Below are positions 1-17,359 of a stretch of DNA of 21,774 bases, piece by piece (the stretch's first letter is position 1; each line of letters opens with the position of its first letter). The stretch covers positions 1 to 21,774 of the forward strand of contig PIVW01000036.1 of the NCBI GenBank assembly GCA_003353825.1. The letters are read 5' to 3'. The notes under the pieces are model-generated. The model did no database searches and was not told the DNA's origin. It saw only the letters and a program-made list of their open reading frames with translations. Position numbers and translations under genes: made by a program. Source of the stretch: Chloroflexota bacterium (GTDB taxonomy: Bacteria > Chloroflexota > Anaerolineae > J102).

Positions 1-180
1 CAGCACCAGGCATCCGTGTTCAGTAAAATGTTCGAGCCTTGCACGGTTCTTGGTGAATGAGCCCGGCGCCCATTGTCTGACCCCTTGATCCCAAAGCCAG
101 GCGCCGACTTCTTCCAATAACAGGATGAAGACGTCTAGCGATGCGACGGTCGCTTCGACAATAGTATAGTTTTCTGGCAA
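1..180 (-). CDS. GNAT-family N-acetyltransferase, N-terminal part (runs off the left edge)
   Basis: Only the first 60 residues are in the window; the gene continues beyond base 1. The minus-strand frame from TTG at 180-178 reads LPENYTIVEATVASLDVF, then LLLEEVGAWLWDQGVRQW and PGSFTKNRARLEHF. This is the usual opening of small GNAT acetyltransferases (first beta strand, then helix alpha1 with a 'W.wdqGi.QW' block). GNAT enzymes move an acetyl group from acetyl-CoA to an amine; the acetyl-CoA loop is not in view, so the substrate cannot be guessed. The start is placed at TTG because an AAGGGAT ribosome-binding site lies six bases upstream and the same frame has a stop four codons before it. It lies 46 bp downstream of the MOSC gene in the same direction and is probably co-transcribed with it. 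A different frame gives a 66-residue open frame here with no family resemblance. Confidence 0.72.
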   Translation of the reverse strand, partial: MPENYTIVEATVASLDVFILLLEEVGAWLWDQGVRQWAPGSFTKNRARLEHFTEHGCLVL

Positions 181-226
181 ACGACGATCCCTTTATTTGA
201 GCACGGCTAGATAGGTACATGTGACA

Positions 227-790
227 CTATTCTTCGACGATTGTGGCGAGATCGCCAACCCGAATCGCACCGGGTTGAACGATTATCGCGTTCACGCCAC
301 GCAATCGCAGCTCTCTTCCCTCTTGAGAATTGACGAATTTCGTCGCATCGACGCCAAATCGCTCCACGAACAGTTTACATCCCCTATGCGGAACAGGGGT
401 TATTTGCACAACGGCTGAACCCAGCGCGATCTGGGTACCGGCGGGCAGATTATCTTCACTCAGGTTCATGTCGATGTATAGCTGATCACCGGCCAGTTGC
501 CACCTTTTCTTATTCAGAGCGATCAGGGCAATAAGGCGAGAATTCATCATGGTGATCTGCATTTCGGGGTGGGCGCTTCCATCTTTCGTGCCAGAACTAC
601 CACGGGCTTTCCAATTGTCCCCCACCAGTCCTTCCACCAAATCTAGTTCCCCCTGCTCAATGACTTCTCGCTCGCCAATCTTGGGGCGCCGCACAATCAT
701 ATCTAAACTACCGTTGTTTACAGGCGACTGCCTGATTGTTTCCAAACCAGCTTCCAGCGCTACCATTGTCAGTTGTGTAACCTCTGTCAT
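227..790 (-). CDS. MOSC domain-containing protein
   Basis: A 187-residue protein resembling stand-alone MOSC (molybdenum cofactor sulfurase C-terminal) proteins. Seen in order: ELDLVEGLVGDNW (about residues 48-60, the 'GL.GD.w' opening), PEMQITMMNSRLI, AGDQLYIDMNLSEDNLPAGT (about 100-119), and PHRGCKLFVERFG with Cys138, the conserved cysteine proposed to carry sulfur in this fold. It ends with RLRGVNAIIVQPGAIRVGD. The family is thought to transfer sulfur to metal centres; MOSC-only proteins mostly have no proven substrate. ATG at 790 is preferred over ATG at 796 because GAGG sits six bases before it and directly abuts the first ATG. The gene follows the ancestral stop of the APH-like gene (824) by about 30 bp, so the two probably formed one transcription unit before the MITE insertion, with the GNAT gene downstream. 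Confidence 0.85.
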   Translation of the reverse strand: MTEVTQLTMVALEAGLETIRQSPVNNGSLDMIVRRPKIGEREVIEQGELDLVEGLVGDNWKARGSSGTKDGSAHPEMQITMMNSRLIALIALNKKRWQLAGDQLYIDMNLSEDNLPAGTQIALGSAVVQITPVPHRGCKLFVERFGVDATKFVNSQEGRELRLRGVNAIIVQPGAIRVGDLATIVEE

Positions 791-823
791 AGTCATCCTC
801 TTTCAGTCATGTTTGATGTACTG

Positions 824-995
824 CTACTCAGTGTTAATCAACTTCTCCAATACCTGATTGACAAACCATCTGTGTTCTCCCCGCATTGCTTTTTCGGTGC
901 TCGGGGTAAGTCCCCACTGGCCGATTTTCGAGGCGGGACGCAAAGCAGCACATAGATCCCAATAAGGGAGATTGGTGAGATCGATGTCCGTCATA
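824..995 (-). pseudogene. Displaced 3' end of the APH-like kinase gene, cut off by the MITE
   Basis: Seen: reading minus from 995 in the frame that continues the APH gene once the MITE and one target duplicate are removed gives an open frame ending at TAG 824-826. It contains NLPYWDLCAALRPASKIGQW and later EKAMRGEHRWFVNQVLEKL. This matches the way APH-family kinases close (LPYWDL.AALRP..., then a 'R.RWFV.QA...L' helix). Known: proteins of this type are usually about 300 residues; adding the 57 residues encoded across the junction to 247 upstream gives about 304. In the present sequence the stretch has no start of its own and is not expected to be translated. Confidence 0.85.
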
Positions 996-1002
996 GATTG
1001 AT

Positions 1003-1125
1003 CTGAGAACTCTGGAAAACTTTTTTGAGCGTTTTTTTGCCCCCGTTTACACAGGTGCGAACGAACAACCCCCCCCTGTATACAGGGGGGCGAACAGCCG
1101 TTTTAGATTTTTCCAGAGTTCTCAG
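1003..1125. mobile_element. 123-bp MITE-like element inserted in the APH-like gene
   Basis: The element starts CTGAGAACTCTGGAAAA (1003-1019) and ends with its exact inverse complement (1109-1125): 17-bp perfect terminal inverted repeats. It is flanked by identical 7-bp copies of GATTGAT at 996-1002 and 1126-1132, a target-site duplication. It is too short to code for a transposase, so it must have been moved by an enzyme encoded elsewhere. The interior carries homopolymer runs and a 20-bp perfect palindrome. The insertion replaces the last 57 codons of the host gene by one codon and a TGA that lies inside the repeat end. I cannot assign the IS family from the ends; the transposase relics at 17.4-18.2 kb show no visible link to it. 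Confidence 0.88.
1071..1090. repeat. 20-bp perfect palindrome inside the MITE
   Basis: CCCCCCTGTATACAGGGGGG reads the same on both strands, with one further C on the left (1070). Either strand can fold into a very stable GC hairpin. No T-tract follows directly, so it is not a classic intrinsic terminator, but it sits between the shortened kinase gene and the MOSC gene and could reduce read-through into the latter. Confidence 0.85.
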
Positions 1126-1868
1126 GATTGATAGTGATCAGTGAATCGATGCATGGCATCTTTTCCGAAAGCCCACAGGATCTCGAGCCTGCTGTTTGCA
1201 ACATCCGCAAGTGGATCTCCTACACTGGCATCCTCCCAGTCGATTACGGCAGCGAGCCGACCCTCTACCCATAACACGTTGCCAGGCCAAAAATCGCCAT
1301 GACGTAATACCGATTCGTTGATCTGAGCTAAGGGCCACATAGCTGTCAATGTCTTTCGAATACGTCCTTCGTGCAATGATACGTCAAGCTTATCAGGGAG
1401 TTCGCCAAAACCATTGCCTTGCTTGGGAAGAAAAGATAGGTCAAACTGCGACTCACGTACATGATGAAACTTGGCCAGGTGTGTGGCTAGTTGATAGGTA
1501 GTGTCGGCCAAATTGCTTGGGAAAAAATCGGTCTCGCCCTTGATGTATTCAATGACAAGGTACGGGATGGAGAATATCTCACAAGACTGATCGAGATAAT
1601 AAGGCTCCGGTACCGCTAATCCTTGGGATCGCAATAATTGCAAGAGCTTGAATTCGCCTGCCGCGATCAGTGGATTCTGCTTGCGGTCCACCTCTCCGTG
1701 GCGGCGGACGATCATTTTCTGCCTGTGACCATCAGGTTGCTCGATCTCAAGCGCTGTCACCTGAGCGGAGACACCACCCGTCAGTTGCCATGTTCGCAGC
1801 AGCCTGTATCGAGGGTTGATACGGCGCACCAAAGCATCAAGCTTCTCATTATAGTCTGAATCTGACAT
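1122..1868 (-). CDS. APH-family phosphotransferase, C-terminally truncated by a MITE
   Basis: A 248-residue protein of the aminoglycoside phosphotransferase/choline-kinase fold. These enzymes transfer the gamma-phosphate of ATP to hydroxyls of small molecules; many environmental members are not antibiotic resistance enzymes. Motifs: IVRRHG (about 53-58, the beta3 strand that normally carries the nucleotide-contacting residue), YLVIEYIKGE (103-112, hinge), LRHGDFWPGNVLW (188-200, the Brenner motif with His190, Asp192 and Asn197), and VIDWEDASVGDPLADVAN (208-225, with metal-binding Asp210). All core catalytic residues remain. The protein stops at TGA 1122-1124, which lies in the MITE end, so the last helical part found in homologues is missing; the lost part is still present at 824-995. 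No convincing ribosome-binding site precedes ATG 1868. It could be partly active or a gene beginning to decay. The substrate is unknown. Confidence 0.85.
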   Translation of the reverse strand: MSDSDYNEKLDALVRRINPRYRLLRTWQLTGGVSAQVTALEIEQPDGHRQKMIVRRHGEVDRKQNPLIAAGEFKLLQLLRSQGLAVPEPYYLDQSCEIFSIPYLVIEYIKGETDFFPSNLADTTYQLATHLAKFHHVRESQFDLSFLPKQGNGFGELPDKLDVSLHEGRIRKTLTAMWPLAQINESVLRHGDFWPGNVLWVEGRLAAVIDWEDASVGDPLADVANSRLEILWAFGKDAMHRFTDHYQS

Positions 1869-2092
1869 TTGCTAAAGGCGACGATTAGGTGATATCTGTC
1901 AAGACATTTTTGGAGACTTTGCAGACCATCGTGTAAGCGGGATCAAAGATGTTGCCGACGTGAGTGGAGGATGTCGCCGTAGAGATCGCCTGCCCGCGCG
2001 CAAGCGCCACCCCAAAGCACCCAACCATGGGATTGATACGGGTCAATCTTGATGCCAGCGTAGTCGTCAGCGGCCACATCTCGCTGGCGGAT

Positions 2093-4867
2093 TCACCGGC
2101 TAAGATCCTGATACATTGTGGCCTCTTTGCTCGTCGTCGGTGCGGTGAACATGCCAACGGCGCGCTCCTCATCCGCGTTCATGTAGATCTGCAGCAACCG
2201 CCCGCCTGTACTCACGGCCACGTCGATCACTTGCACGACATCGGCAAGATGGTCGAATTCGGGCAGCAGGTCGGGGAGAAGGTTAGCCGATTCGGTCAGA
2301 AAACGTTCGTCGAAGTGAGAGAACGGATCATCGGGATAGACGGGTAGGTAGCGAATGGCCGATTCTACCAGATCCAGGAAAAAGTGGGTGCCGAAGGAGA
2401 GTTCAGGCATGAAGTCGCCACTGCTGTCGGCAACTTCTACGAGCATGGCGGCGTTGTCGATGTCGGAAAAGGTGACACTGACGCCCAGTTTTATATCGCC
2501 TCGGCTACCCCAGCGCCCCGGCCCGATCAGAGTGAACCGGCGGGGAGGCAACATCTGATTGAGCTGACCCACCACCCGGCCAACCGCCAGCAGATCAGCG
2601 CGTTCGGAAAGCGTCTGATAGCGCTGTGGGTTGACGTAGACGACATGGGTGATGTCTGAGGTCGTGCCGTTCGAGACAAAACGATGGGTGGAGAACAGTA
2701 CGTCGGCGGGGTCAGGATTCTGGGGGATCGTGGCCGGAGCGCTCTCGATGGCATAGGTTTGCGGGCGGCACTGCAGCAGATAGAAATGCTCGCCATCATG
2801 GGCGAATTCGATGTCTACGGGCGTTTCCAGCCGCTCTTGCAAGACCTGCAGCATGGTGTGAATCTGCTCGACAAAGGGTGTGTGTTTGATTAGCCCTTCG
2901 CCGGTGACGACCAGTGAGTCTCGCGCCGAGTCCAGGCCCATGGGCGAGGCCATTTGTAAGCGATCCTGCTGCAGCACAGACGCCAATTGATGCAGCAGGG
3001 GATAGTCGTGGCCGTGTTGCCGCAGCAACTCCTGAATCTCGATGGTCTGGAATGTGTTGGCATTGAGATCGATTACATCGATCATTTTGGGCGAATACCG
3101 CACTTTCTCGGCCAGCGTGGCATTCACACGCAGCCCCGGCCGGCCGGGGGCCAGTAAGAGGGGATAGTCGTTGGCCACGCGGTCGACGGCGCGTGTACCC
3201 AGGCCCGGCACCAGCCGTACCACACCATCTTCGCGCTTGATGCGAGGAGACCAGCGAAATTCGTTGTTGCTGAAGGCGACGCCGGCAAAAGCAGGCAGGT
3301 AGTACTGCCCCACGCGTGTCCCTACCACCTCCTGAATGAGCACACCCATTTCCTCGTGCAGGTCGGTGAGCTGGTGGCGGATGCGGTATTCGATGGGGTC
3401 CGGCCCGAAAGTGGAGGCATAGACCTCGGCAACGGCGTCGACCAGAGCTTCCAGGCGCTCCTCTTTGGTGCCCTGGTTGGCGATGAACACACTCTTGTAT
3501 TTGCCCGCGAAAGCGGCACCCAGACGGTCTTCCAGCAGGCTGGAGCTACGGGCGATCAGGGGGACATCGCCCAGGCTGTCAAGCGCCACCGCAAGGCCAC
3601 GCAAAATATCAGACGGCATAGGCGAATTCTTGAACAACTGCACCACGTGGGGATATTCCTGGCGCACCTGGCCGATTTCCTTGTACTTCTGCGCAAGGAT
3701 GTCTTCCAAATTGTTGAAATGGACGAAATGTCGAACGCCGCCCGAGGCCAGATACCACGTGCGCGGTGTGCGAATACCCTGCAAAATTGGGTAATCACCG
3801 CAGGCATGCAACAGGATCGACTCAGCCAGCACCATGCCCGCGGCCTTGCCACCCAGTTTGCCGTGGCTGTCCGAGGGTATGATCAGGCGCTGAGCCAGAT
3901 CGGCGTAATCATCTAGCGTGACATAGTGCTTGGCGATGCGAATAAAATCGGGCTGGTCGCTGAAAAACCGCCGCCCCAACGAGACCTTAAACGCCGTCTC
4001 TCGCTGCGGCGATAATTCCAGGCCGCGCGGCACAAGATGCTGGAAACGTTGCAGGGCCGACACCACTTCTTGCAATGATGCACCGGGAATTTCGAGGACA
4101 TTGGCCAGGATATCTGAGCGATCTTCGCTGATCCATTTCTGGATGTTGCCGGTGATCTCCTCATCGCTGAGATTGTCATCAGCTATCTCCAATATGGCTT
4201 TGGTCGCATCCAGAAAGTCGCCTGAGATAGGGTGATGGGTGGGAGCATTTGCAGAAGAAAAGAGGGCATTCTCTGCGCTGCGATAGGCTGGGCCGAAGCT
4301 TTCCAGCAGGCGTTCAGCCTCTGGCACGCCGCTCCAACACAGCATGTTGAGCATTTTGCGGGTGACAGCCATGAGCAGGCGTGGATTGGTGCGCCTGAGC
4401 ATATCGGTGATCACCTGCCACTGCCTGGTCTTGTTCTGCTTCTCGAACACCCTTGTCAATTTTTGGATGAGCAAATGGCGAGCAAAGCGATCAGCGATGC
4501 TTTCGATAAGTTCCTGCTCTTCCTGCAAAAAGGGGCCTTCGTCGGCGTTGGGCGTTTGCGCGAGGTACGAGACCTCGATCATGCCGATCTCCTGGCCCTG
4601 CACGACAATGGCCGCCCGTTGCACCCAGGGTGTGTCGACAAAGTTGGGCGAGCTGTAGATGTCTTCGCCCAGACGGATCAGCACCTGACAGATATCAGGA
4701 TACTGCCAGCCCGGGGGAATCACACTCAACAAGCCCCGGCAGATATCGGCAACTGCCTGATCGGGACAATTGAAGACTTTCTCGACGCGGTAGATGCAGT
4801 TCAATTCCTTGGCCCGCTCGTTGAGCTTGACGATAAGGCGATCGATTGAGGGATCAGTTGCGTTCAT
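2093..4867 (-). CDS. GAF-like sensor domain + PEP/pyruvate-binding (PEP-synthase N-terminal-like) protein
   Basis: A 924-residue protein. Residues 1 to about 145 look like the GAF-type sensor domain found on many signalling proteins (ERAKELNCIYRVEKV, then IPPGWQYPDICQVLIRLGE and DEGPFLQEEQELIESIADR). A linker of about 180 residues follows. Then comes a PPDK_N/ATP-grasp domain: KLGGKAAGMVLAES (GGK near 337), IARSSSLLEDRLGAAFAGKY (near 440), MGVLIQEVVG, and VDIEFAHDGEHFYLLQCRPQ (about 683-703, with the Glu and Gln-x-Arg-Pro typical of the nucleotide site). The C-terminal part has LIGPGRWGSRGD (near 785) and SFGTHFFLDL (near 825), shared with the upstream paralogue. The phosphohistidine swivel domain and TIM barrel of PEP synthase are absent, so ordinary PEP synthesis is not expected. 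ATG 4867 overlaps the end of the upstream paralogue by 14 bp, so translation is probably coupled. Reaction unknown. Confidence 0.85.
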   Translation of the reverse strand: MNATDPSIDRLIVKLNERAKELNCIYRVEKVFNCPDQAVADICRGLLSVIPPGWQYPDICQVLIRLGEDIYSSPNFVDTPWVQRAAIVVQGQEIGMIEVSYLAQTPNADEGPFLQEEQELIESIADRFARHLLIQKLTRVFEKQNKTRQWQVITDMLRRTNPRLLMAVTRKMLNMLCWSGVPEAERLLESFGPAYRSAENALFSSANAPTHHPISGDFLDATKAILEIADDNLSDEEITGNIQKWISEDRSDILANVLEIPGASLQEVVSALQRFQHLVPRGLELSPQRETAFKVSLGRRFFSDQPDFIRIAKHYVTLDDYADLAQRLIIPSDSHGKLGGKAAGMVLAESILLHACGDYPILQGIRTPRTWYLASGGVRHFVHFNNLEDILAQKYKEIGQVRQEYPHVVQLFKNSPMPSDILRGLAVALDSLGDVPLIARSSSLLEDRLGAAFAGKYKSVFIANQGTKEERLEALVDAVAEVYASTFGPDPIEYRIRHQLTDLHEEMGVLIQEVVGTRVGQYYLPAFAGVAFSNNEFRWSPRIKREDGVVRLVPGLGTRAVDRVANDYPLLLAPGRPGLRVNATLAEKVRYSPKMIDVIDLNANTFQTIEIQELLRQHGHDYPLLHQLASVLQQDRLQMASPMGLDSARDSLVVTGEGLIKHTPFVEQIHTMLQVLQERLETPVDIEFAHDGEHFYLLQCRPQTYAIESAPATIPQNPDPADVLFSTHRFVSNGTTSDITHVVYVNPQRYQTLSERADLLAVGRVVGQLNQMLPPRRFTLIGPGRWGSRGDIKLGVSVTFSDIDNAAMLVEVADSSGDFMPELSFGTHFFLDLVESAIRYLPVYPDDPFSHFDERFLTESANLLPDLLPEFDHLADVVQVIDVAVSTGGRLLQIYMNADEERAVGMFTAPTTSKEATMYQDLSR

Positions 4868-6635
4868 ACACAGCGACCTCTATTGCTGACTTGAGAATAC
4901 ATCCGCGACCGCTGCGCCCGTCCACCTTGACCAACAGCGGTTCAGGAAGTGCTACATGATTGACAAACTCACCTTCTTCGCTCCCGGCCAATCCCGCCAA
5001 CCACGCCCAATCAATGGCGAAATGACTGCTATAGTTCACTGCAAAGTAGCTGACTTGCAAACTGGTGAGGTTGTGAAAAAAGTGCGATCCCTGGCTCAAC
5101 TCCACGGTAAAGCCGGGGCGTGTGGCCTCGACGATGACTTTTGCGCCGGAAACCTGACCCCAAACCACAGGAATGCCCAGCCATGGATCCGAACTGCCCC
5201 AGCGCCCGAAACCGATGAGCAAATAGGGCAGGCCCTCCGCCAGCAAACGGCGATTGACCCGCGCTAATTCCAGGGCGATACGGCGGCAGTACGTAGTGTC
5301 AAAACGCTCCGGTGGGATGTAGACGATGTCGCAGATGCTATTGTTGATGCCATTACCCAGGACGCTGTCTGAGGCCAGCAGCACAGCCTGTCCCGTCATA
5401 TCGGTAGGGGTGATCTCGACCTGTTCGGATGACACTACCATGGGGCGGGCCTGGAGAAAGCCAAAACGATGCCGGGCACGGGCTTGGGACGGGCGCGTGC
5501 CGGGGTCATCCAGGACCATGGCAAACTCGATCTCGACCGGGGCGTTGTGGGCCTGCTCACTCAGGGCCAGCAGGCGCTTGAGTAGGCGGTTGAGCGGGGC
5601 TTCTTTCCACACCAGCAGCGGCGCGAAAGTGAGCAATCTTGGCCCTGGTCGGCCCATGCCCGGTGTGATCCGGTCTGATTGTGGATCAAAGGTCGAGGCA
5701 AGATAGCGGAGCACGCCATCCCGCTCGGCCTCTGCCAACCCCGCTGTAATCAGATATTCGGTCTCGCGGATCGGGTCGTAGGCTGGGGGCTTGCCCATGT
5801 TCACGGCCCAAAACGTGGTCTGGGTGAGTTTGAACAACTCGGCAGGCGAGCCGACAGGCGGATTCACCTGGGGTCGGACGGGCGAGTACATCCAACTGAC
5901 GCCGCCGTCGACGATGGTTTTGCCCAGTCCCAGGGCCAGGTGCACGACCCCATCCTCCGGTCTGGCCCGACCCCTGGCGTAATAGTTGTATGAGTGGGCA
6001 ACGCCGGAGAGGTGGGGATAGAAGCGGTCGCCATGTCGTTGCCCCAGCACTTCCTGGATGATCACGGCCATTTCCTCTGCCACGACCCTCCGTCTTGTGG
6101 CCTTCAGATAGTCCTTAGCCGCGCCGAAAAAGGTGGAGGCGTAAAGAAATTTGATGGCTTCAACCAGTTTCTGGAAGCGGACATCTGGGCTGGGCTGGTT
6201 GTTGGGGATCATCTTGGTGGCGTAGACGCCGGCAAAAGGCTCGTGCAGGGCGTCCTCCAGCAAGCTGGATGAGCGCACGGCCAGCGGAGAGTGCACATCG
6301 ACGATCAGGGCTCGTAGGTCGCCCAAGATCTCGACGGGTAAATGTGCCTGCTGAAAAATATGGGCGAGATGATCATCGGGCAGGCCGTCGTGGGTGATGG
6401 CGTGCAAATCGTTGCGCACCATGAAAGCATTGAAGGCATCGGTTCCGATCACGACCAATCGCGGTACATCGACCTCGATCTCGGCGAATTCGGTGGGGTC
6501 AAAATCTTGTTGCAGGGTTTCGTAAACGCGCGCCAATCCCGTGGCCTTGCCGCCGGCGCTGCCGCCGCCGATCATGTTAAAGCGCTGGTCGGGATCGAAA
6601 AATCGGCGGGTGAAGGGGGGGATAGCGGATATCAT
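4854..6635 (-). CDS. PEP/pyruvate-binding domain protein, shorter paralogue
   Basis: A 593-residue protein. Motifs of the PEP-synthase/PPDK nucleotide-binding domain: IGGGSAGGKATGLARVYE (Lys30), LAVRSSSLLEDALHEPFAG (near 122), EEMAVIIQEVLG, PVEIEFAM (near 367) and FGFLQARPMV (near 394). After that comes the region it shares with its neighbour: LIGFGRWGSSDPWLGIPVVW (near 478) and ELSQGSHFFHNLTS (near 517). It has no GAF-like domain, no phosphohistidine domain and no TIM barrel. The frame is open further upstream, but those codons overlap the dehydrogenase gene; ATG 6635 gives MISAIPPFTRRFFDPDQRFN, which fits the family's N-terminus. A weak GAGG lies 13 bases upstream. It starts 34 bp after the dehydrogenase stop and ends inside the start of the longer paralogue, which points to one operon and perhaps a hetero-oligomer. 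Confidence 0.85.
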   Translation of the reverse strand: MISAIPPFTRRFFDPDQRFNMIGGGSAGGKATGLARVYETLQQDFDPTEFAEIEVDVPRLVVIGTDAFNAFMVRNDLHAITHDGLPDDHLAHIFQQAHLPVEILGDLRALIVDVHSPLAVRSSSLLEDALHEPFAGVYATKMIPNNQPSPDVRFQKLVEAIKFLYASTFFGAAKDYLKATRRRVVAEEMAVIIQEVLGQRHGDRFYPHLSGVAHSYNYYARGRARPEDGVVHLALGLGKTIVDGGVSWMYSPVRPQVNPPVGSPAELFKLTQTTFWAVNMGKPPAYDPIRETEYLITAGLAEAERDGVLRYLASTFDPQSDRITPGMGRPGPRLLTFAPLLVWKEAPLNRLLKRLLALSEQAHNAPVEIEFAMVLDDPGTRPSQARARHRFGFLQARPMVVSSEQVEITPTDMTGQAVLLASDSVLGNGINNSICDIVYIPPERFDTTYCRRIALELARVNRRLLAEGLPYLLIGFGRWGSSDPWLGIPVVWGQVSGAKVIVEATRPGFTVELSQGSHFFHNLTSLQVSYFAVNYSSHFAIDWAWLAGLAGSEEGEFVNHVALPEPLLVKVDGRSGRGCILKSAIEVAVYERN

Positions 6636-6669
6636 GGTGTTGCGTGTTGCCTCGAGACTATCGCACGCT

Positions 6670-7956
6670 TCATACCCAGCCACGATCGCGGCAGGCTTGG
6701 GCCACGCGACTGATGGCGATAACATGGGCGGCGTCGCGCATGGGCAGCTTATGACGTCTCGCCAGCTCGCTGACGGCAATGTAGGTGGATGTCACCTGTA
6801 CATCGAGCTTGCCCAACACCTCATCCAACGTCCAGTAATAGTTCATATTGCTCTGCACCTGCTCGAAATAGCTGCATGTGACGCCACCGGCGTTGGCCAA
6901 AAAATCGGGTATGATAAAGATTCCGCGCTCGTTCAGCACGGCATCGGCATCGGCGGTGGTAGGGCCGTTGGCCCCTTCGGCGATGAGCTTGAGGCGCGGG
7001 CTGATCCGCTCCACCGTCGTCGCCGTGATCTGGTTCTCCAGAGCGGCGGGGATGAGGATATCCACCTCCTGCTCGATCCAGGCATCTCCGGGCAGAGTCT
7101 CATAACCTAAATCTTTGGCCTGATCAGTGTCGATATCCCCGAACACGTTGGTGATGCCTAGCAACTCATCCAGATCGATGCCATCACGCCGGCGATAGCT
7201 GAAGGCCGCCTCTTCGGTCTGGTTCCAGGATGAAACGCAGGTCACGGTCCCACCCAATTGAAGGTAGAGGCGGATGGCGTGCTGGGCGACATTGCCGAAG
7301 CCCTGGACGCTGGCCGTGGTGTTGTCCGCTCGCAGGTTCAATTCTTTTAAAGCCTCGCGCACGGTGAAGATCACGCCGTAGCCGGTGGCTTCTTTGCGCC
7401 CCTGCGAGCCGCCGGCATTGAGGGGCTTGCCGGTGACAAAACCGGGATGATGGCCGCCGTGGAGAGCTTCGAATTCGTCCAGCATCCACAGCATGTGTTG
7501 AGGGCTGGTCATAACATCGGGTGCGGGCACATCCACGGTTGGGCCAACATTGCGGGCGATCTGCCGCACCCAGCCCCGGCAAATCCCCTCCAATTCCCGC
7601 TCACTAAGCTGGTGGGGGTCGCAAACCACGCCACCTTTGCTGCCGCCCAGGGGGATATCGACCAGCGCGCATTTCCAACTCATCCACATCGCCATCGCCC
7701 GCACGGTGTCGATGGTTTCCAAGGGATGAAAGCGTACGCCACCCTTGCCGGGGCCGCGGGCGTCGTTATGGTGGATGCGAAAGCCGCGGAACACCCGAAT
7801 CCTGCCATCATCCATGCGCACGGGAACGCTAAAATGATACTCGCGCAGGGGCACGCGCAGCAGGTCGCGGGCGGGGGCATCCAGTTCAAGCAAGTCAGCG
7901 ACGCGGTCGAACTGCACTTGGGCGGCATGAAAGGGATTATATGACTTATCTGCCAT
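6670..7956 (-). CDS. gdhA: Glu/Leu/Phe/Val dehydrogenase (glutamate dehydrogenase)
   Basis: A 428-residue cytoplasmic enzyme that interconverts glutamate and 2-oxoglutarate plus ammonia with NAD(P). The dimerisation domain has GPGKGGVRFHP (Lys71), WMSWKCALVDIPLGGSKGGV (Lys95 and Lys107) and VPAPDVMT (Asp147). The spacings 24, 12 and 40 are those of Lys89, Lys113, catalytic Lys125 and Asp165 in the Clostridium symbiosum enzyme, so the active site looks complete. The cofactor domain shows TASVQGFGNVAQHA (GxGxxA at 219-224) and EGANGPTTADAD. It closes with PDFLANAGGVTCSYFEQVQ. NAD versus NADP preference cannot be read; the end of the second Rossmann strand is VSSWNQTE. ATG 7956 is chosen over an ATG 17 codons upstream because GAGGAAAT lies just before it and MADKSYNPFHAAQVQFD is the normal N-terminus. 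It heads an operon with two PEP-binding proteins. An inverted repeat abuts its ribosome-binding site. Confidence 0.93.
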   Translation of the reverse strand: MADKSYNPFHAAQVQFDRVADLLELDAPARDLLRVPLREYHFSVPVRMDDGRIRVFRGFRIHHNDARGPGKGGVRFHPLETIDTVRAMAMWMSWKCALVDIPLGGSKGGVVCDPHQLSERELEGICRGWVRQIARNVGPTVDVPAPDVMTSPQHMLWMLDEFEALHGGHHPGFVTGKPLNAGGSQGRKEATGYGVIFTVREALKELNLRADNTTASVQGFGNVAQHAIRLYLQLGGTVTCVSSWNQTEEAAFSYRRRDGIDLDELLGITNVFGDIDTDQAKDLGYETLPGDAWIEQEVDILIPAALENQITATTVERISPRLKLIAEGANGPTTADADAVLNERGIFIIPDFLANAGGVTCSYFEQVQSNMNYYWTLDEVLGKLDVQVTSTYIAVSELARRHKLPMRDAAHVIAISRVAQACRDRGWV

Positions 7957-7969
7957 TGTGATTTCCTCG

Positions 7970-8003
7970 TTTGCGATACAGAGGGTATCTGCTGTATCGC
8001 AAA
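7970..8003 (-). promoter_or_regulatory. 12-bp inverted repeat in the leader of the dehydrogenase gene
   Basis: TTTGCGATACAG (7970-7981) and its exact complement CTGTATCGCAAA (7992-8003) are separated by 10 bases. The repeat ends directly beside the GAGGAAAT ribosome-binding site of the dehydrogenase gene (ATG 7956). It could be an operator for a dimeric repressor or a hairpin in the mRNA leader that affects ribosome access. No T-run follows, so it is not a terminator for this gene. Confidence 0.6.
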
Positions 8004-8394
8004 ACAATACAAGAAACGCCTGCGCAATTCACGCAGGTAACGAGGAGTGGACCACAGTCTCTCGAAACGTCGGCATTGACGCGCAGAGCATTGAGAATTC
8101 GCACAGATTCGTAATCACATGCGAACCGATTAGCGTTAGCTTAACACAGGGCGCGCCAGATCGCTATGATGGCCGTCATATTACGCTAACCTGCCGGTGA
8201 AACATCACCTCACAAATTGCCATGCGAGCGTTAGTAGCAAGGTAGCAGATGACAGGTCGTGTCGGATTTCCCGCTTGCTGTTTGAGCGTGCCGTTTTTTG
8301 AAAACTTGCTCTGCTTGTTAAGGTTATTATTACCTTAAAGATCCTGACAACAGCAGCTGTGTGGCAATGCTCTACACTGCAAGTACCCCCATAT
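8004..8394. promoter_or_regulatory. Divergent non-coding region with several inverted repeats
   Basis: I see no credible gene between the dehydrogenase (minus) and secG (plus). Inverted repeats: CCTGCG...CGCAGG (8019-8037); TTAGCGT (8130-8136) with ACGCTAA (8183-8189) enclosing the near-perfect palindrome TATGATGGCCGTCATA (8165-8180); and TTAAGGT-TATTATT-ACCTTAA (8318-8338), which lies 57 bp before the secG -35 box. The 8130-8189 set can fold as one nested cruciform or hairpin. I could not pick out a convincing promoter for the dehydrogenase operon on the minus strand. Open frames here have no family resemblance. Confidence 0.5.
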
Positions 8395-8423
8395 TTGTAC
8401 CCTCCCATCACCAATGCTATAAT
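8395..8423 (+). promoter_or_regulatory. Sigma-70-type promoter of secG
   Basis: TTGTAC (8395-8400), a 17-bp spacer and TATAAT (8418-8423), with the extended -10 bases TGC directly before the -10 box. Transcription would begin near 8430, about 27 bases upstream of the secG TTG, leaving room for the GAGGAG ribosome-binding site. Confidence 0.8.
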
Positions 8424-8456
8424 CGTGCGCTGACCCATCTAGAGGAGATATTAACC

Positions 8457-8678
8457 TTGGAAGCATTTACCCTCATTGCCCAAATCATTATAGGCGTTGT
8501 CCTCACCGTACTGGTCGTGCTTGGCACCCAGAATAGTGGCGCGGGCAGCATGTTTGGTAGTGACACGACCGTGTACCGCACGCGCCGTGGCCTGGAAAAA
8601 ACCATCTACCAGGCGACGGTCATCGTCACCGCCCTTTTCTTCATCGTATCGATCATCGCAGCCTACGTCATCGGCTAA
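8457..8678 (+). CDS. secG: Protein-export membrane protein SecG
   Basis: A 73-residue inner-membrane protein, accessory subunit of the SecYEG translocon. It has the SecG pattern of two membrane helices joined by a short Gly/Ser-rich loop: helix 1 about residues 4-23 (LIAQIIIGVVLTVLVVLG), the loop TQNSGAGSMFGSDTTVYRTR with the typical 'Q....G.G..FG', a 'RGLEK' stretch before helix 2, and helix 2 about residues 51-71 (VIVTALFFIVSIIAAYV). TTG 8457 is chosen because GAGGAG sits nine bases upstream; the frame stays open to an ATG at 8361, but this would add 32 atypical residues and would begin upstream of the promoter. It is followed after 30 bp by a solute-binding protein gene, probably in the same transcript. 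Confidence 0.9.
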   Translation: MEAFTLIAQIIIGVVLTVLVVLGTQNSGAGSMFGSDTTVYRTRRGLEKTIYQATVIVTALFFIVSIIAAYVIG

Positions 8679-8708
8679 CGGCCTGCGACCCCAAGTCCCG
8701 CTGATACC

Positions 8709-10397
8709 TTGAGTCGTCACGTACGCTGGCAGGCGGTTTTGGCCCTCCTGGGCCTGTTGCTAGTCGTCGCCCTGCTTAGCTACGCAACTTACACTTATAC
8801 GTCTGAATTCGTCCCCGCACGCGGGGGCGTCTTTGTGGAAGGGGTAGCAGGCAATCCCCAATACATCAATCCGGTTCTCTGCCAGTACAATGAGGTGGAC
8901 CGGGATCTTTGCGCGCTCATCTTCAACGGTCTCTTACGCTTCGACCAGCGCGGGGAACTACAGCCAGACCTGGCCGAAAGCTGGGAGGTCAGCCCGGCCA
9001 GCGATGTCTTCACCTTCACTTTGCGGCCCGACGCCCGTTGGCACGACGGTTTGCGCCTCACAGCCGACGATGTGATCTTCACTGTCGAACTGATGCAGGA
9101 CCCTGACCTTCAGGTGTTGCCCGACCTGGCCGTACTCTGGCGTTCGGTGATAGCCAGAAAGATCGATGATCGTACAGTTGTCTTCCAACTGTCTGAGCCA
9201 TACGCTGCATTTCCTGACTACACAACGGTGCGATGGTTCGGCGTCTTGCCCAAACATTACTGGCAGCGTTACAAACCGCGAGAGTTGGCACGGGCCCAAC
9301 TTAACACCCAACCCATCGGTAGCGGACCCTTCCGAGTCACCGAGATCGATAGCCAACATATACGGCTGGAACCGATATCCCGCGAGTTCGAACAACCCCC
9401 CTATCTTGATGCACTCGAATTCCGATTCTACCCGGACTATCAAAGCATTCTGGCGGCAGCTGAACAGGGTGAAGTGCACGGCGTCAGCCGCATCTTACCA
9501 GAATACATAGGCCAGGCCGAGGCAATGACCGATTTGCAGCTCTTTACCTCGCCCATGCCCGGCTTTACTCTCCTTCTTTTTAATCTTGAATCAGCCAATG
9601 CCCCCTTCCTGGCCGATCCGACCATCCGCCAGGCCATCGCCCATGGTATCGACAAAGAGCGCCTGCTGCAAGATGTCATCCCCGGCGTCGGCATGCTGGC
9701 AGATAGCCCCATGCTACCAGAAAGTTGGGCACATAACCCCGACACACCCAGTTACGAATATGACCCGGAAAAAGCTCAGGCACTGTTGGAACAAGCCGGT
9801 TGGGTAGATACAGACAATGATGGCATACGCGAACTGGATGGTCAACCCTTGGAGTTCATCCTCCTCAGCGACGATGCACCCCACTCGCTGCTGGTCAACC
9901 AGGCTATCGCCAGCGATTTGGCCCGGATCGGCGTGCGCGCTATCGCACAGCCCGTTTCCTTTACCGGCCTGGTGAGTGATTTCTTGGTGCCGCGTAACTT
10001 CTCGGCTGCCCTGGTCAACTGGGAACTGATCGGCGATCCTGATCCCTACCCGCTGTGGCATTCCAGCCAGATCAGCCCGCCCGGCCAGAGTTATAGCGGC
10101 TGGAATAACCGCCAGGCTGATATCGCCATGGAACAAGCGCGCATCACCACAGACCGGGACAACCGCCGAGATCTCTACTACGAATTCCAAAAGCTTTTCT
10201 CCCAAGATCTTCCCGCCATTTTGCTTTTCTATCCCCTTTACACCTATGGCGTCTCTACAGCCGTGAATGATGTGGAGGTAGGCCGAATCAACGAACCGGC
10301 TGAACGCTTCCGCACCTTTGCAGACTGGTACACCCAGCTGAGAAAAGTCACGCTATCTGAGCGCCGCACATTGGAGTTTGACAATCTAGAAAGGTAG
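8709..10397 (+). CDS. ABC transporter extracellular solute-binding protein, family 5 (peptide/nickel type)
   Basis: A 562-residue SBP_bac_5 protein. Such proteins bind oligopeptides (or nickel, or opines) outside the membrane and hand them to an ABC permease. Residues 8-28 form a single hydrophobic helix (AVLALLGLLLVVALLSYATY) with no lipobox cysteine, so it is anchored or cleaved rather than lipid-modified. Family landmarks: GVAGNPQYINPVLCQYNEVD (after about 43), LIFNGLLRFDQRGELQPDLA, SWEVSPASDVFTFTLRPDARWHDG (the family signature block), ADDVIFTVELMQDP, IGSGPFRV, IRQAIAHGIDKERLLQDVIPG and YDPEKAQALLEQAGW. The start is TTG 8709, 30 bp after secG; no good ribosome-binding site is visible, so coupling to secG is likely. 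No permease or ATPase gene is adjacent, so its partner must be elsewhere. The substrate cannot be told. Confidence 0.9.
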   Translation: MSRHVRWQAVLALLGLLLVVALLSYATYTYTSEFVPARGGVFVEGVAGNPQYINPVLCQYNEVDRDLCALIFNGLLRFDQRGELQPDLAESWEVSPASDVFTFTLRPDARWHDGLRLTADDVIFTVELMQDPDLQVLPDLAVLWRSVIARKIDDRTVVFQLSEPYAAFPDYTTVRWFGVLPKHYWQRYKPRELARAQLNTQPIGSGPFRVTEIDSQHIRLEPISREFEQPPYLDALEFRFYPDYQSILAAAEQGEVHGVSRILPEYIGQAEAMTDLQLFTSPMPGFTLLLFNLESANAPFLADPTIRQAIAHGIDKERLLQDVIPGVGMLADSPMLPESWAHNPDTPSYEYDPEKAQALLEQAGWVDTDNDGIRELDGQPLEFILLSDDAPHSLLVNQAIASDLARIGVRAIAQPVSFTGLVSDFLVPRNFSAALVNWELIGDPDPYPLWHSSQISPPGQSYSGWNNRQADIAMEQARITTDRDNRRDLYYEFQKLFSQDLPAILLFYPLYTYGVSTAVNDVEVGRINEPAERFRTFADWYTQLRKVTLSERRTLEFDNLER

Positions 10398-10405
10398 TGT
10401 AGAAT
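10378..10405 (+). promoter_or_regulatory. Promoter of the tRNA-Leu gene
   Basis: TTGACA (10378-10383), a 16-bp spacer and TAGAAT (10400-10405). It straddles the end of the solute-binding protein gene (stop 10395-10397) and would start RNA near 10412, about 36 bases before the mature tRNA end. Confidence 0.72.
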
Positions 10406-10447
10406 TCGGGTTATGGTGTTCAAGTACGCACCAACAAAAATTGATAG

Positions 10448-10532
10448 GCCGATGTGGCGGAACTGGCAGACGCGCTGCGTTCAGGGCGCAGTGGGCATTT
10501 GGCTCGTGGGGGTTCGAATCCCTCCATCGGCA
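10448..10532 (+). tRNA. tRNA-Leu (anticodon CAG)
   Basis: An 85-nt class II tRNA. The acceptor stem GCCGATG (10448-10454) pairs with CATCGGC (10525-10531), with discriminator A10532. The anticodon stem CTGCG/CGCAG (10475-10479, 10487-10491) encloses loop TTCAGGG with anticodon CAG at 10482-10484, reading CUG leucine codons. The long variable arm (10492-10507) can form a four-pair stem (GGGC with GCTC). The T arm is GGGGG-TTCGAAT-CCCTC, including one G-T pair. The 3' CCA is not encoded. The gene has its own promoter and terminator. Confidence 0.95.
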
Positions 10533-10543
10533 CTCCATTCAAG

Positions 10544-10573
10544 AAATCCTCGCCAGGCTTTGCGAGGATTTTC
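10544..10573 (+). terminator. Intrinsic terminator after tRNA-Leu
   Basis: AATCCTCGC (10545-10553) pairs perfectly with GCGAGGATT (10562-10570) around an 8-base loop, followed by TTC; with the flanking A and T bases the hairpin ends in an A/T-rich base. It lies 12 bp past the tRNA end. Confidence 0.75.
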
Positions 10574-10713
10574 TGCACTGATCACCGCTTGGTAGCCAGG
10601 AACGAGGATCGGATAAAATCCGAAAACCCTAGGCCGGCCGATTCGTAGTAGTGGCGTAGTTCAATAAAACTTCGTTCTCTAGCCCCCACGGCACACCCCC
10701 GTCGAGAAAACCT

Positions 10714-11181
10714 ATGGGACGCCAGTCACTCCCCCAACGACAGTTATTGACAGTGCGACAGATCCTCATCGCACTGAGCATTGTGGCGTGTCTGTCCTTT
10801 ATCATCAGCTACAGCGGGCGCATTGTCCTGAACAGCAAAGTCCAGTCCCAGCAAGAATACGTCGCAACGCGAGTACAAGAAGAAGAGGCCGTAAAAGCAC
10901 AGATTTTGGAGTGGCTGACTGATGCGGATAAATCGGTGCAGGCGGAGGCCTTCGCTCGCAATGAGTTGAACTGGGCGCGCGAGGGTGATCAAACAGTGGC
11001 GACACTTAATTCAGGTACTGAGGCCGGCATAGAGCCTGCCACCCTCCTCGAGGTTGATCTCGGACTGGAAGCAGCCCCCACCCCAGAGAATTGGGAACTG
11101 TGGTTGGATTTGGTCCTCAGCGGCCATGCGCAACCTGAGATCGAATTTGAAGTGCCTGAAGCCGGAACCAACACACCCTGA
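10714..11181 (+). CDS. Septum formation initiator (FtsB/DivIC-like) protein
   Basis: A 155-residue single-pass membrane protein. Residues 1-14 are polar and basic (cytoplasmic), about 15-35 form the membrane helix (ILIALSIVACLSFIISYSG), and 38-72 are a Glu/Gln-rich stretch likely to form a coiled coil (KVQSQQEYVATRVQEEEAVK). Next comes EAFARNELNWAREGDQTVAT (about 77-96), which corresponds to the family's conserved 'A R.el.w...gE.v' block after the coiled coil. FtsB/DivIC proteins bridge FtsL and FtsQ-type proteins in the divisome. The Asp/Glu-rich C-terminal tail (about 100-155) is not conserved and may be extracytoplasmic. ATG 10714 has only a weak ribosome-binding site (GAGAA). It lies about 140 bp after the tRNA terminator, and a lipoprotein gene follows after 56 bp. 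Confidence 0.78.
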   Translation: MGRQSLPQRQLLTVRQILIALSIVACLSFIISYSGRIVLNSKVQSQQEYVATRVQEEEAVKAQILEWLTDADKSVQAEAFARNELNWAREGDQTVATLNSGTEAGIEPATLLEVDLGLEAAPTPENWELWLDLVLSGHAQPEIEFEVPEAGTNTP

Positions 11182-11237
11182 AAGTCGTCCCTATAGCACT
11201 AAACAACCTTTGCATCCCCCCCCCAAAGGAAGCAGAT

Positions 11238-11927
11238 ATGATGGCCAGATTTGGTGTTAAGTTCATACCGGTAGTGACATGCCTGATTCTCCTGGCGCTA
11301 GCCGCTTGCCAAGGACTCAGCCCAGGTAGCAGTGACAGTGAAGCAGGGCAGATGACGTTCAGCGGCCCAAACAAGGAGACTGTGCCGGTAGGTGGGATGA
11401 TGCCAGGCACCGGGGTGCAATACATCAGGTCGGACGAGGAAAAAGGCGCCGAACTACGTATCGATGGCCAACTCGCATATAAAAAGAGCGCGGACAGCGT
11501 CAAATGGCAAGGTGCACCTGTGGCAGGGACCGAACTTAGCGTCAATCAGCGGGTGCTCTGGCACAATGATGAATCCCTCGGCCTGGGCGGAACCGTGACG
11601 ATCATCGTCGAGGGTGTCGATCCAAAAGCACTACCCTCAGTACCCGATGCGCCCGTGCGTTACAGCCTGCCTGCCACCTACAACGTTGTTGTTGGGGAAG
11701 CTGTTCCAGGTACCCACCTGATGCTCGATGATATCATTCCCGAAAAAGGTGCGGAGTTCTCTGGTTGGTATGAAGATCAATATGGTCTGCGCCAGATCGC
11801 CGATTCAGTCGGATGGGATGGCTCGCTACGCGATGGGGTGCAGATCTCGCAACGATTGCGCGTGGCCTGGATCGGGGATGATGCTGTGCGCTTGGCCGGC
11901 ATCGTGCATATTTTATTGGCGCCGTAG
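11238..11927 (+). CDS. Lipoprotein with two tandem copies of one domain
   Basis: A 229-residue secreted lipoprotein. The signal peptide ends in the lipobox LALAAC, with Cys24 as lipidation site. The rest is an internal duplication: residues about 46-125 and 144-229 align with each other. Matched blocks are PGTGVQYIRSDEEKGAELR versus PGTHLMLDDIIPEKGAEFSG, ADSVKWQGAPVAGTELSVNQ versus ADSVGWDGSLRDGVQISQ, and RVLWHNDESLGLGGTVTIIV versus RVAWIGDDAVRLAGIVHILL. Each copy looks all-beta. I do not recognise the domain and give no function. AAAGGAAG lies five bases before ATG 11238; a second ATG follows directly. It sits 56 bp after the FtsB-like gene, so a shared transcript and an envelope role are plausible but unproven. 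Confidence 0.8.
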   Translation: MMARFGVKFIPVVTCLILLALAACQGLSPGSSDSEAGQMTFSGPNKETVPVGGMMPGTGVQYIRSDEEKGAELRIDGQLAYKKSADSVKWQGAPVAGTELSVNQRVLWHNDESLGLGGTVTIIVEGVDPKALPSVPDAPVRYSLPATYNVVVGEAVPGTHLMLDDIIPEKGAEFSGWYEDQYGLRQIADSVGWDGSLRDGVQISQRLRVAWIGDDAVRLAGIVHILLAP

Positions 11928-12455
11928 CCTTTCTCATGCTCCCGCAAGGCGACGTTCAAGTGTCTGGCTTGTGCCTGAAGGCGTTTTGTAGCGCTCTGAA
12001 CCTAGATCGTCTTCAGCCATCGATTGTATCCCGTTGGCATGGCGTCAGAATGATTCGAACTGATTTTCCGTAATCTCAGCAGATCCAATATGTGTCTTGT
12101 TGATGCGTTTGTAGACCGGGTGCCAGTAGGACAGTAGACCGGGATACACCGCCCAAACGCATATCAAGGCGTAATCTACCCGGAATACCTGTATTCCCGT
12201 TTTTCGGTATTCAGGTTTCCCGTTTTACGGTATGGAGAAGCATCTTATGTGGAATTTGGATCTACTGAATCCGTAAATGGACCCTCCCAGAATGTCGAAT
12301 GAGAACGTCAGCCGGATGTCAGAACATCGTCATCGTTAGGAGAGGATAGAAGAGCGTCATCACGATACAATGAGTACACATAATTGGCGCAACCATTGAT
12401 TCCATTTGTACGTAGTATGATCAGGTGCGATTGTATTCCCCTAGTCCGCCGCATA
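11928..12455. other. Non-coding stretch with short direct and inverted repeats
   Basis: I see no gene here. GTAGACCGGG occurs twice (12111-12120 and 12134-12143), and the pair lies inside the inverted repeat ATGCGTTTG (12103-12111) / CAAACGCAT (12154-12162). Next to it is GAATAC-CT-GTATTC (12183-12196), then TTCCCGTTTTTCGGTATTC and TTTCCCGTTTTACGGTATG, two imperfect copies of one 19-mer (from 12194 and from 12216). This could be a protein-binding array or the scar of a lost element. No terminator for the lipoprotein gene is obvious. Confidence 0.45.
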
Positions 12456-12464
12456 TGCTAGAAT
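12456..12464 (+). promoter_or_regulatory. Extended -10 promoter before the DUF2207 gene
   Basis: TGC-TAGAAT: the extended -10 TG at 12456-12457 and the hexamer TAGAAT at 12459-12464. No good -35 box lies 16-18 bp upstream (only ATTCCC-like sequence), as is usual for extended -10 promoters. The start would be near 12471, about 38 bases before ATG 12509. Confidence 0.5.
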
Positions 12465-12508
12465 ATAAATGGTTTTCTATCTCGACACTTTTCAGGTGGA
12501 GCAAACCT

Positions 12509-14446
12509 ATGCTTAATCGTTCGTTTCGCTGGCTACTCCTATCTTTTGTACTTGTAGCTTTGCTCATAGTACCTGCCACGGCACAGAGCAAAACCTTATA
12601 CTGGGACCATTTCGACGTCGATATCACAGTCAACGACGATGGCAGTTTTGATGTCGTCGAACTGCAGGATATCGAATTCACCAGCGGCTCCTTTACCTTT
12701 GGGTCTCGCAGCATTCCCACAGATCTGGTGACAGGCATCCGCGACATAAAGGTGTGGGACGAACAGGGAGAATACACCCAAAGCAACAGCCAGGCGCCCG
12801 GCACCTTTAGCGTCGATGACGACGGCTCGACGGTTACCATTCGCTGGTATTTTGAAGAGGCGCAAGACGAGAACCGGGCATTCTCTATAGGCTATACGGT
12901 GGATGGGGGGGTGCGCTATTATGACGGGGATGATCAGATATGGTGGAAGGCGGTTTATCCCGACCGATCTTTCCCGGCTAATAACAGTACCGTCATCGTG
13001 CATGTACCGGCTCCTGCCGAAGTCCAGAACATGGACAGCTATTTCACCACATCCGAGATGACGCTACTTGATCCGCAGACATCGCAGTTTGTAGCCACAG
13101 AACGCATCTCACCCGGCCAAACCTTTGAAGTACGTGTGGAATTTACACCTGGTGTGGTCGCAGGCGCCCCTGCACCCTGGCAGCAATCAGAGGATGCCCG
13201 CGCCGTCGAATTGGAGTCGCAAGTCGCATTCGACCGTAACTGGCGGCCGATCATCAATCTCATTGTCGGCGCGTTTTCGCTGCTCTTCGTTGTCTTAGCT
13301 CCGCTGCTGCTATACCTGATCTGGTACACGCGTGGTCGGGATGCGGAAGCTGATTTTGTCGCCGAGTATCTGCCCGAACCCCCCTCTGATATGCCTCCTG
13401 GCATGGTCGGCACCCTGCTCGACGAGAAAGCTGACATGGAAGATATCCTTGCCACCCTGGTCGACCTGGGGCACAAGGGGTACATCCGTATGGAAGAACT
13501 GGAACCCAAGAAAAAAGGGCTATTTGGTCGTGGAGAGGCCGACTTCAGCTATACGCTTGAGAAGCAGGCGGATGGACAATTGAGGACCTATGAAAGGCAA
13601 TTGATCACCTCGCTGTTCGGATCGAGTAAGACCGAAAGGAAACTATCCGATCTCAAGACCAAATTCTACAAACATTTACCCAAGATACGTTCCGAGTTGT
13701 ATGAGGAGGTTGTCGAAGAGGGGCTTTTCGTTTCGCACCCCGAGAAAACCCGGAGCCGTTGGGTGATTCTTGGTATAGCAGCATTGTTGGCTGCCGTGGT
13801 TTTCGGCTGCACCATCAACATTGTGCTGGTCTCTTTTAGCGACTTTGCTTTATGCCTTCCCCTGGGATTCGGCTTGTTCGCCTTTGGGATGATCTTCCTG
13901 GCGCGCTGGATGCCCCGAAAGACACAGGAAGGCGCCGAACAGGCCGCTCGCTGGCAAGCCTTCCGCACTTATCTTGAAGATATCGATACCTATACCGATC
14001 TGGAGCGTGCCACCGAGTTATTTGACCGCTATCTGCCCTACGCCATCGCCTTCGGCCTGGAAAGCAAATACATCAAAAAATGGTCTAAGGTCGAATCGGC
14101 GCCCATTCCTGGTTGGTACATACCCTATCCCCGACCCATCTATGGCAGTTATGGCATGCCCGGTTATGGCGGCAGTGTAGCCGGTGGTGGAGCGCCCTCA
14201 TCTTCTTCGCCAGAAACAGGCGGTGGCATGCCCAGTTTGGGTGATGCCAGCGGCGGCATGAGCGCCGGTCTTGCCGGTATGAGCGCCGGCCTTACCACCA
14301 TGTTGTCCAGTGCCTCATCTACCATGGCCAGCAGACCCCAGCCCAGCGGTGGCAGTGGCGGCGGTGGCTGGTCGGGCGGTGGTTTCAGTGGTGGTGGCAG
14401 CTTCGGCGGCGGTGGCGGCGGCGGTGGCGGCGGTGGATTTGGTTGA
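12509..14446 (+). CDS. DUF2207 membrane protein with Gly-rich tail
   Basis: A 645-residue protein. It has a signal peptide or first helix at residues 1-26 (RWLLLSFVLVALLIVPATAQ). An extracytoplasmic beta-rich domain follows, about 27-235, with YWDHFDVDITVNDDGSFDVV as typical DUF2207 opening. The first membrane helix is near 247-272, then a cytoplasmic section with DILATLVDLGHKGYIRME (winged-helix-like, common in the family), two more helices near 419-467, the family block ARWQAFRTYLEDID...DRYLPYAIAFGLE, and a tail of about 110 residues ending almost purely in Gly and Ser. ATG 12509 is preferred over an ATG 28 codons upstream because GGTGGAG precedes it and the signal peptide begins there. Family function is not established. 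It is first in a four-gene cluster with zinc-ribbon and SPFH proteins, which suggests a membrane-stress role. Confidence 0.87.
   Translation: MLNRSFRWLLLSFVLVALLIVPATAQSKTLYWDHFDVDITVNDDGSFDVVELQDIEFTSGSFTFGSRSIPTDLVTGIRDIKVWDEQGEYTQSNSQAPGTFSVDDDGSTVTIRWYFEEAQDENRAFSIGYTVDGGVRYYDGDDQIWWKAVYPDRSFPANNSTVIVHVPAPAEVQNMDSYFTTSEMTLLDPQTSQFVATERISPGQTFEVRVEFTPGVVAGAPAPWQQSEDARAVELESQVAFDRNWRPIINLIVGAFSLLFVVLAPLLLYLIWYTRGRDAEADFVAEYLPEPPSDMPPGMVGTLLDEKADMEDILATLVDLGHKGYIRMEELEPKKKGLFGRGEADFSYTLEKQADGQLRTYERQLITSLFGSSKTERKLSDLKTKFYKHLPKIRSELYEEVVEEGLFVSHPEKTRSRWVILGIAALLAAVVFGCTINIVLVSFSDFALCLPLGFGLFAFGMIFLARWMPRKTQEGAEQAARWQAFRTYLEDIDTYTDLERATELFDRYLPYAIAFGLESKYIKKWSKVESAPIPGWYIPYPRPIYGSYGMPGYGGSVAGGGAPSSSSPETGGGMPSLGDASGGMSAGLAGMSAGLTTMLSSASSTMASRPQPSGGSGGGGWSGGGFSGGGSFGGGGGGGGGGGFG
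14345..14446 (+). repeat. GGC/GGT codon repeat tract encoding the Gly-rich tail
   Basis: About 100 bp of mostly GGC and GGT codons (with some AGC, TTC and TGG) at the 3' end of the DUF2207 gene. Such tracts can change length by slippage; any change of a multiple of three keeps the frame. The poly-Gly end is also usual for this protein family, so the tract is likely selected. Confidence 0.8.
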
Positions 14447-14586
14447 TACCAGAACCCTGTCGCTCCACATCCTATGTTGAACCCGCCACCTTACCAGCTC
14501 GACCATATGACGGCATCCCAACACTCATCTTTCGACCATCAACATTAGCTCCCTCAACCCCTTGACCACACCTGGAAATAACAATC

Positions 14587-15117: not shown

Positions 15118-15203
15118 ACGTGGTCCGTGTTGCGTGAACGCCAGTCTGCACGAGTTCCGAGCGAGGCACGATTAGCTGATAACCAACAGCTTGCGGCTCG
15201 CGA

Positions 15204-15274
15204 CTTGAAACTTGAAACTCATCAAATACCCATATCCCACACACTTTACTGACCCAAATCTCCAATCTCTCAAA
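15204..15274. repeat. Short-word repeats between the zinc-ribbon and helical-protein genes
   Basis: CTTGAAA twice in tandem followed by CTC (15204-15220), then CCAAATCTCCAATCTCTCAA (15253-15272). The 11-mer TCTCCAATCTC (15259-15269) recurs exactly at 20191-20201, inside the radical SAM gene. These look like remains of the short-word repeat tracts scattered through this genome. Confidence 0.55.
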
Positions 15275-15289
15275 CAAGGAGGTCTCTAC

Positions 15290-15856: not shown

Positions 15857-15896
15857 GGGCGACTCTTGCGGTCGCTCTTTTGCGGCCGACCACCAA

Positions 15897-15917: not shown

Positions 15918-15962
15918 CCACGAATCACAATTCTATCATTACCACAAACAGGAGAAACCACC

Positions 15963-17012: not shown

Positions 17013-17035
17013 TTACCAAACTCGACACATTACGG

Positions 17036-17330: not shown

Positions 17331-17359
17331 CAGCACAAAGGGCGCCAGTTGTTCCAGAT

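Follow-up and report, generated by a model that had tools for sequence, protein, structure and literature searches.

The window, the 21,774-nucleotide stretch of Chloroflexota DNA analysed here, carries a kinase-like gene in two pieces, between which lies a short mobile element of the MITE type. The features of the locus are:

824..994, minus strand: displaced 3′ end of the kinase gene, 56 codons plus stop, without an internal stop and matched by 119 of 119 listed homologues
996..1002, plus strand: left copy of the target site duplication (TSD), GATTGAT; a single GACTGAT in the sister genome
1003..1125, unstranded: 123-bp MITE with terminal inverted repeats (TIRs), TSD and related copies in the sister genome Bse_26
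1003..1019, plus strand: left TIR, CTGAGAACTCTGGAAAA, 17 bp
1109..1125, minus strand: right TIR, 17 bp, exact complement of the left
1122..1868, minus strand: truncated kinase-like ORF of the APH family (PF01636), 248 aa, with its stop TGA at 1124-1122 inside the element
1126..1132, plus strand: right copy of the TSD, GATTGAT; a single GACTGAT in the sister genome

The truncated frame (the head) belongs to the APH family by its Pfam score, 90.9 bits against PF01636 with a cut-off of 23.2, and it is closed by the element's own TGA, bases 2–4 of the element. Because the element also supplies one base of codon 248, the C-terminus of the head reads ...TDHYQS. The displaced end (the tail) runs on the minus strand from ATG 994 to TAG 824, its 56 residues carrying NLPYWDLCAALRP and EHRWFVNQVLEKL. 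An earlier note, made from the letters of this DNA, had proposed that a MITE cut the tail off an APH-family kinase and that the displaced end is intact. Both points hold, and the tail does restore the gene, although the note placed the head end at TDHYQ and counted 57 codons, where 56 follow residue 248. Its figure of about 304 residues for the full product also stands (248 + 56 = 304), for which a naturally intact gene, and no artificial joining of the two parts, served as the check.

The APH fold (PF01636) is common to aminoglycoside, macrolide, choline and thiamine kinases. Against the best NCBIfam resistance model, APH_3p (cut-off 205), the head reaches 33.1 bits and the intact orthologue 42, and the latter lies well under the cut-offs of all NCBIfam models that it touches, resistance kinases among them; the substrate therefore cannot be named. 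The identity of a resistance gene was considered and rejected, since the scores of both head and intact orthologue fall far short of those set for the resistance kinases.

The anatomy of the element is as the earlier note described it, a 123-bp unit with exactly complementary ends between 7-bp GATTGAT repeats. Its 17-bp TIRs are 100% complementary and form the sole inverted-repeat pair reported for window positions 600-2200, and a search of the window for the TIR at up to 3 mismatches finds two places, both ends of the element, against a shuffle mean of 0.03. The strand folds strongly relative to shuffles both as DNA together with its flanking repeats (z −7.3) and as RNA (z −8.6). A chance inverted repeat was rejected on the shuffle comparison of the TIR search and on these z-scores. 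No ORF of 80 aa lies inside the element, whose 123 bp amount to at most 41 codons, leaving it without a transposase gene of its own. As for a reading as structured RNA, only one of 45 pairs is changed on both sides across 12 chosen copies, and that pair lies within the TIR; a conserved RNA beyond the TIR stem is therefore unsupported.

The uninterrupted form of the locus is present in the Chloroflexota MAG Bse_26 (G001). Searching it with the 248-residue head returns a single place with 90% identity, lying in a 305-codon open frame; the kinase orthologue there (contig C331) is uninterrupted, with an ORF product of 304 aa, and we took P0002 (304 aa, 90% identical, from a protein search) to be the sister's orthologue protein. 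At the DNA level, window positions 1126-1961 and 838-1002 match adjoining sister stretches at 92% and 93% identity, and these two BLAST pieces share exactly 7 sister bases, GACTGAT, which are the single target copy, without a footprint. An empty site with a single 7-bp target, sought at the suggestion of the earlier note, thus exists. Much of window 1-17349 is collinear with the same sister contig at 92-95% DNA identity, with gaps, and the comparison is therefore orthologous.

The two genomes differ elsewhere along this alignment. Among the genes of window 2037-8388 (about 6.3 kb) are those for a PPDK_N-type protein and a glutamate dehydrogenase, together with one more long ORF. At the DNA level this stretch is unmatched at the corresponding place of the sister, where about 0.64 kb is found instead; in the other direction, about 3.3 kb of sister sequence separate the end of the kinase from the stretch matching window position 803. 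Adjoining the kinase at 1885-2036 is a remnant of an acetamidase/formamidase-like gene, the sister version of which encodes 311 aa (L104:549-1484, PF03069); the remnant lacks its first part as well as about 348 bp of its interior, a gap bounded by two 13-bp stretches that are nearly identical. At 12067-12276 lies a second, different MITE-like insertion of about 196 bp (12074-12269), with ends resembling TCAGTAGATCC and a 7-bp TCCGTAA repeat on either side, the sister flanks joining at a single TCCGTAA (L114); similar stretches occur elsewhere in Bse_26, and no ORF of 80 aa spans the insertion. A fragment of an IS66-type transposase (PF03050) is found at 17826-18227.

The element is one of a numerous family. 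The earlier note had called for a search for further copies, and Bse_26 yields at least 40 matches (all 40 scored of 62 candidates), some of them partial, the best full-length copy being 93% identical to the window element. A scan of this genome for the TIR pattern returns 83 hits, and the reversed control pattern returns 0. We count 28 pairs with a span of 121-124 bp, one pair that is 272 bp across and 25 unpaired TIRs, the last often close to contig ends. Twenty-nine loci were surveyed for target duplications; four had insufficient flank, and 19 of the 25 testable copies carry a perfect TSD of 6 bp (n = 3), 7 bp (n = 11) or 8 bp (n = 5), the TSD being absent in the other six. Short, bounded by TIRs, flanked by a TSD, dispersed in multiple copies and without a transposase gene, the element is a MITE.

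Within the family of Bse_26 (20 genomes), Bse_26 alone has a match to the element. The TIR is present in MAGs titled Chloroflexi or Anaerolineae and occurs as a single TIR in many other organisms. These single TIRs in other phyla, which account for many of 62 contig stretches, are probably chance; a phage link was set aside, seven viral-contig stretches each having one TIR and no pair. No plasmid sequence matched window 900-1868. A contig (L031) binned as the Halieaceae MAG Bse_31, from the same series of isolates, also carries this MITE (5081-5203) with a TSD of 7 bp, which may reflect misbinning or transfer.

The kinase gene is probably not the only one interrupted by this MITE, since in Bse_26 open frames, some of them bearing domains, enter copies of the element. 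Such frames of at least 100 codons occur at 8 of the 29 loci, and a Pfam run on five of the eight found domains in three and none in two. The C-terminal domain of a hydroxyisobutyrate-dehydrogenase-like protein is broken by the MITE after position 90 of 122; in an Oxidored_q6 subunit the break falls at position 92 of 128; an AAA_14/DUF4143 protein enters the element with both domains whole. In the same genome, two genes with Pfam domains (at L073 and L091) enter the MITE with frames staying open inside it for 30 and 39 codons, so that the MITE may add a C-terminal tail to their products.

Not all TIRs in Bse_26 belong to the short element. Of the 25 unpaired TIRs, 12 distinct places were inspected, and seven of these run into a different, longer element, as five right ends and two left ends; of the remaining five, four belong to the MITE or derive from it and the fifth is of another kind. 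The ends of the longer element, CTGAAAACTCTGGAAAA, share 16 of 17 bases with the window TIR. Its ends alone were recovered in Bse_26, without the body, and the peptides that they encode are transposase-like by distant homology, Pfam returning no transposase domain in any of the end fragments. Left ends of the same type are also present in a second genome (G002). A third (G003) has a TIR-bounded remnant of 359 bp, its TIRs identical to those of the window, and peptides from the longer-element ends match both ends of the frame remnant inside it with scores of 92 and 66, neither of which is reached in 1000 shuffles.

A chain of weaker similarities leads from these ends to a complete protein: an end fragment matches locus L106 (38%, E 1.2e-11), and L106 matches a full-length protein at locus L109 (35%, E 5e-5), which contains a YREK motif and just passes the DDE_Tnp_1 cut-off (24.3 bits against 23). 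The L109 element measures 1485 bp and has CTGACA ends; the flanks of two L109-type copies show one 6-bp TSD and none, respectively. When 15 loci were scanned for CTG-type ends, a pair with a TSD appeared in L109 alone, and L201 has a 14-bp CTGGTG pair without a TSD. The end-fragment search gave matches in 3 of 298 genomes and the L106-piece search in 3 of 400, all of them fragments or distant relatives, and the L109 protein search gave matches in 20 of 396. Within Bse_26, a query with the transposase-like fragment found no match, and PF01609 has eight matches, one of them a 75-aa fragment that adjoins a MITE copy and is related to L109. A complete autonomous mother element was not recovered by the fragment, L106-piece, L109 or PF01609 searches. 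We infer that the end fragments are the termini of a transposase, and an IS4-type, ISPepr1-like parentage of the MITE is plausible; because the complete element was not recovered, the assignment is a lead.

How much of the enzyme has been lost can be gauged from its homologues. A total of 2433 proteins match the head at E ≤ 0.001, of which 120 were listed for comparison; one is the window's own protein, leaving 119, with lengths of 286-402 aa (median 307). Searched separately, head and tail both match 119 of these 119, and the tail starts directly after the head end in 118 and one residue off in the other. That the short form might be the norm was rejected, since all 119 extend past the break; proteins ending at the truncation point, which the earlier note had named as one observation that would speak against its proposal, are absent from this set. 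In an alignment of 40 of the 119, tail residues L257 and L262 are invariant and D253, P258, Y259, W260, D261, A264, A265, L266, R267, W275, E282, M285, R286, F292 and Q295 are at least 90% invariant; these conserved positions take in much of what the earlier note had regarded as closing motifs. The same note had found the catalytic motifs ahead of the insertion intact, and H190, D192, N197 and D210, which we take to fill catalytic and metal-site roles in the APH fold, are indeed invariant across the 41 rows of an alignment to which the truncated protein belongs. In the P0002 model (mean pLDDT 77), whose best structural matches include Mph, APH(4), APH(3′) and choline kinases (TM-scores of about 0.4-0.6), residue 248 lies at the end of helix 236-249, and the missing part comprises two helices, 254-269 and 279-303, the last two of the APH-type fold. 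The 248-residue protein is probably unstable and residual activity unlikely; the earlier note's suggestion that the shortened protein may keep some activity is the one part of its reading that finds no support, two conserved helices being gone.

Substitution patterns bear on the age of the insertion. Between window and sister, the head has a dS of 0.186 and a dN/dS of 0.27 (247 codons), and the tail a dS of 0.195 and a dN/dS of 0.17, the latter with little power (52 codons, only 10 changes). In eight of nine chosen neighbouring ORFs dN/dS is 0.03-0.44, and in the ninth, a short SecG-like ORF with 8 changes, it is 1.1. Since dN/dS gives no signal of decay in head or tail, we infer loss of function from the missing sequence. 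These values are compatible with an insertion that came after most of the substitutions separating window and sister. The earlier note's impression of a recent event is well founded relative to the sister split (92-95% DNA identity), with identical TSDs and TIRs, a stop-free tail and dN/dS values inside the range of eight of the nine neighbours.

The most likely reading is that a MITE inserted here recently and that the gene lost its function as a result. We are highly confident that the element entered a chromosomal gene for an APH-fold, kinase-like protein at codon 248, after the split from Bse_26, leaving a shortened product that is probably non-functional. The host is a Chloroflexota bacterium of the same class as an Anaerolineae MAG. 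A transposase, probably supplied by a longer relative of the element whose ends are almost the same, would have acted in trans on the 17-bp ends, and a staggered 7-bp cut at the target would have preceded insertion of the element. The TGA at element bases 2–4 would then stop translation at 248 residues, so that the two C-terminal helices are not made; with a product that is probably non-functional, the kinase gene would be a fresh pseudogene. The population may be mixed at this locus, with and without the insertion.

Could the 248-residue protein still be a working enzyme, the element having trimmed only a dispensable tail? The catalytic-loop residues H190, D192, N197 and D210 are kept, and the head dN/dS of 0.27 might be read in the same direction, but this ratio mostly reflects time before the insertion, the lost tail of 56 residues includes two helices with invariant and nearly invariant positions, and no homologue among the 119 others listed is shorter than 286 aa; we consider a working short form improbable. 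Still less credible is a kinase split into two translated parts, the head to residue 248 and the tail from ATG 994, that assemble into a two-piece enzyme; this ATG is the methionine after residue 248 in the intact orthologue and lies 127 bases further on from the head stop.

Two other alternatives concern the history of the site. Contigs of the sister MAG often start or finish in copies of the element, so these repeats break assemblies, and one might suspect a repeat wrongly stitched into the window contig. A false join through a repeat would, however, pair unlike flanks, whereas here the sister has the two flanks side by side at 92-93% identity and the 7-bp TSD is perfect, which makes an assembly artefact exceedingly unlikely. 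An ancestral insertion that the sister lost by precise excision deserves hardly more credence: the MITE family is present in both lineages, but all 119 listed homologues, the sister's among them, are uninterrupted at this point, and the sister site is a single target without a footprint.

A 123-bp family with the TIR CTGARAACTCTGGAAAA was not met among the open-licence papers listed on bacterial MITEs; judged by titles and opening lines of abstracts, those listed for Chloroflexi describe no MITE of this phylum, broader results being mostly general or about other organisms. The kinase itself resembles the APH family (PF01636) in its Pfam score and in the likeness of the intact orthologue model to Mph, APH and choline kinases, and it differs from the NCBIfam resistance kinases, far below whose cut-offs the intact orthologue scores. 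In a review (PMC10969869), bacterial MITEs are described as short, with terminal inverted repeats, a target duplication and many copies, sometimes in genes, and the window element, which is short, TIR-bounded, flanked by a TSD, multi-copy and inside a gene, is like them. The same review reports that the Chunjie MITE disrupts a gene and that other MITEs make in-frame fusions; unlike the latter, the window element ends the kinase frame and does not extend it. For the ISPepr1 subgroup of IS4, PMC2266710 reports 5′-CT ends, direct repeats of 7-8 bp and insertion preferentially at AT-rich sites. The 5′-CT ends and TSD length of the window MITE fit Table 1 of that paper, and the YREK motif is seen in the distant L109 protein only, whereas CTGAGAACTC is a poor match to the consensus end YT-AA-YTT as given in that source. 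A gene broken by a mobile element is a well-known kind of event, and as such the case is a clear yet ordinary one: it shows a MITE most likely inactivating a Chloroflexota gene, leaves general ideas unchanged, and documents, in an uncultured Chloroflexota lineage, a multi-copy MITE family with a natural pair of before and after alleles.
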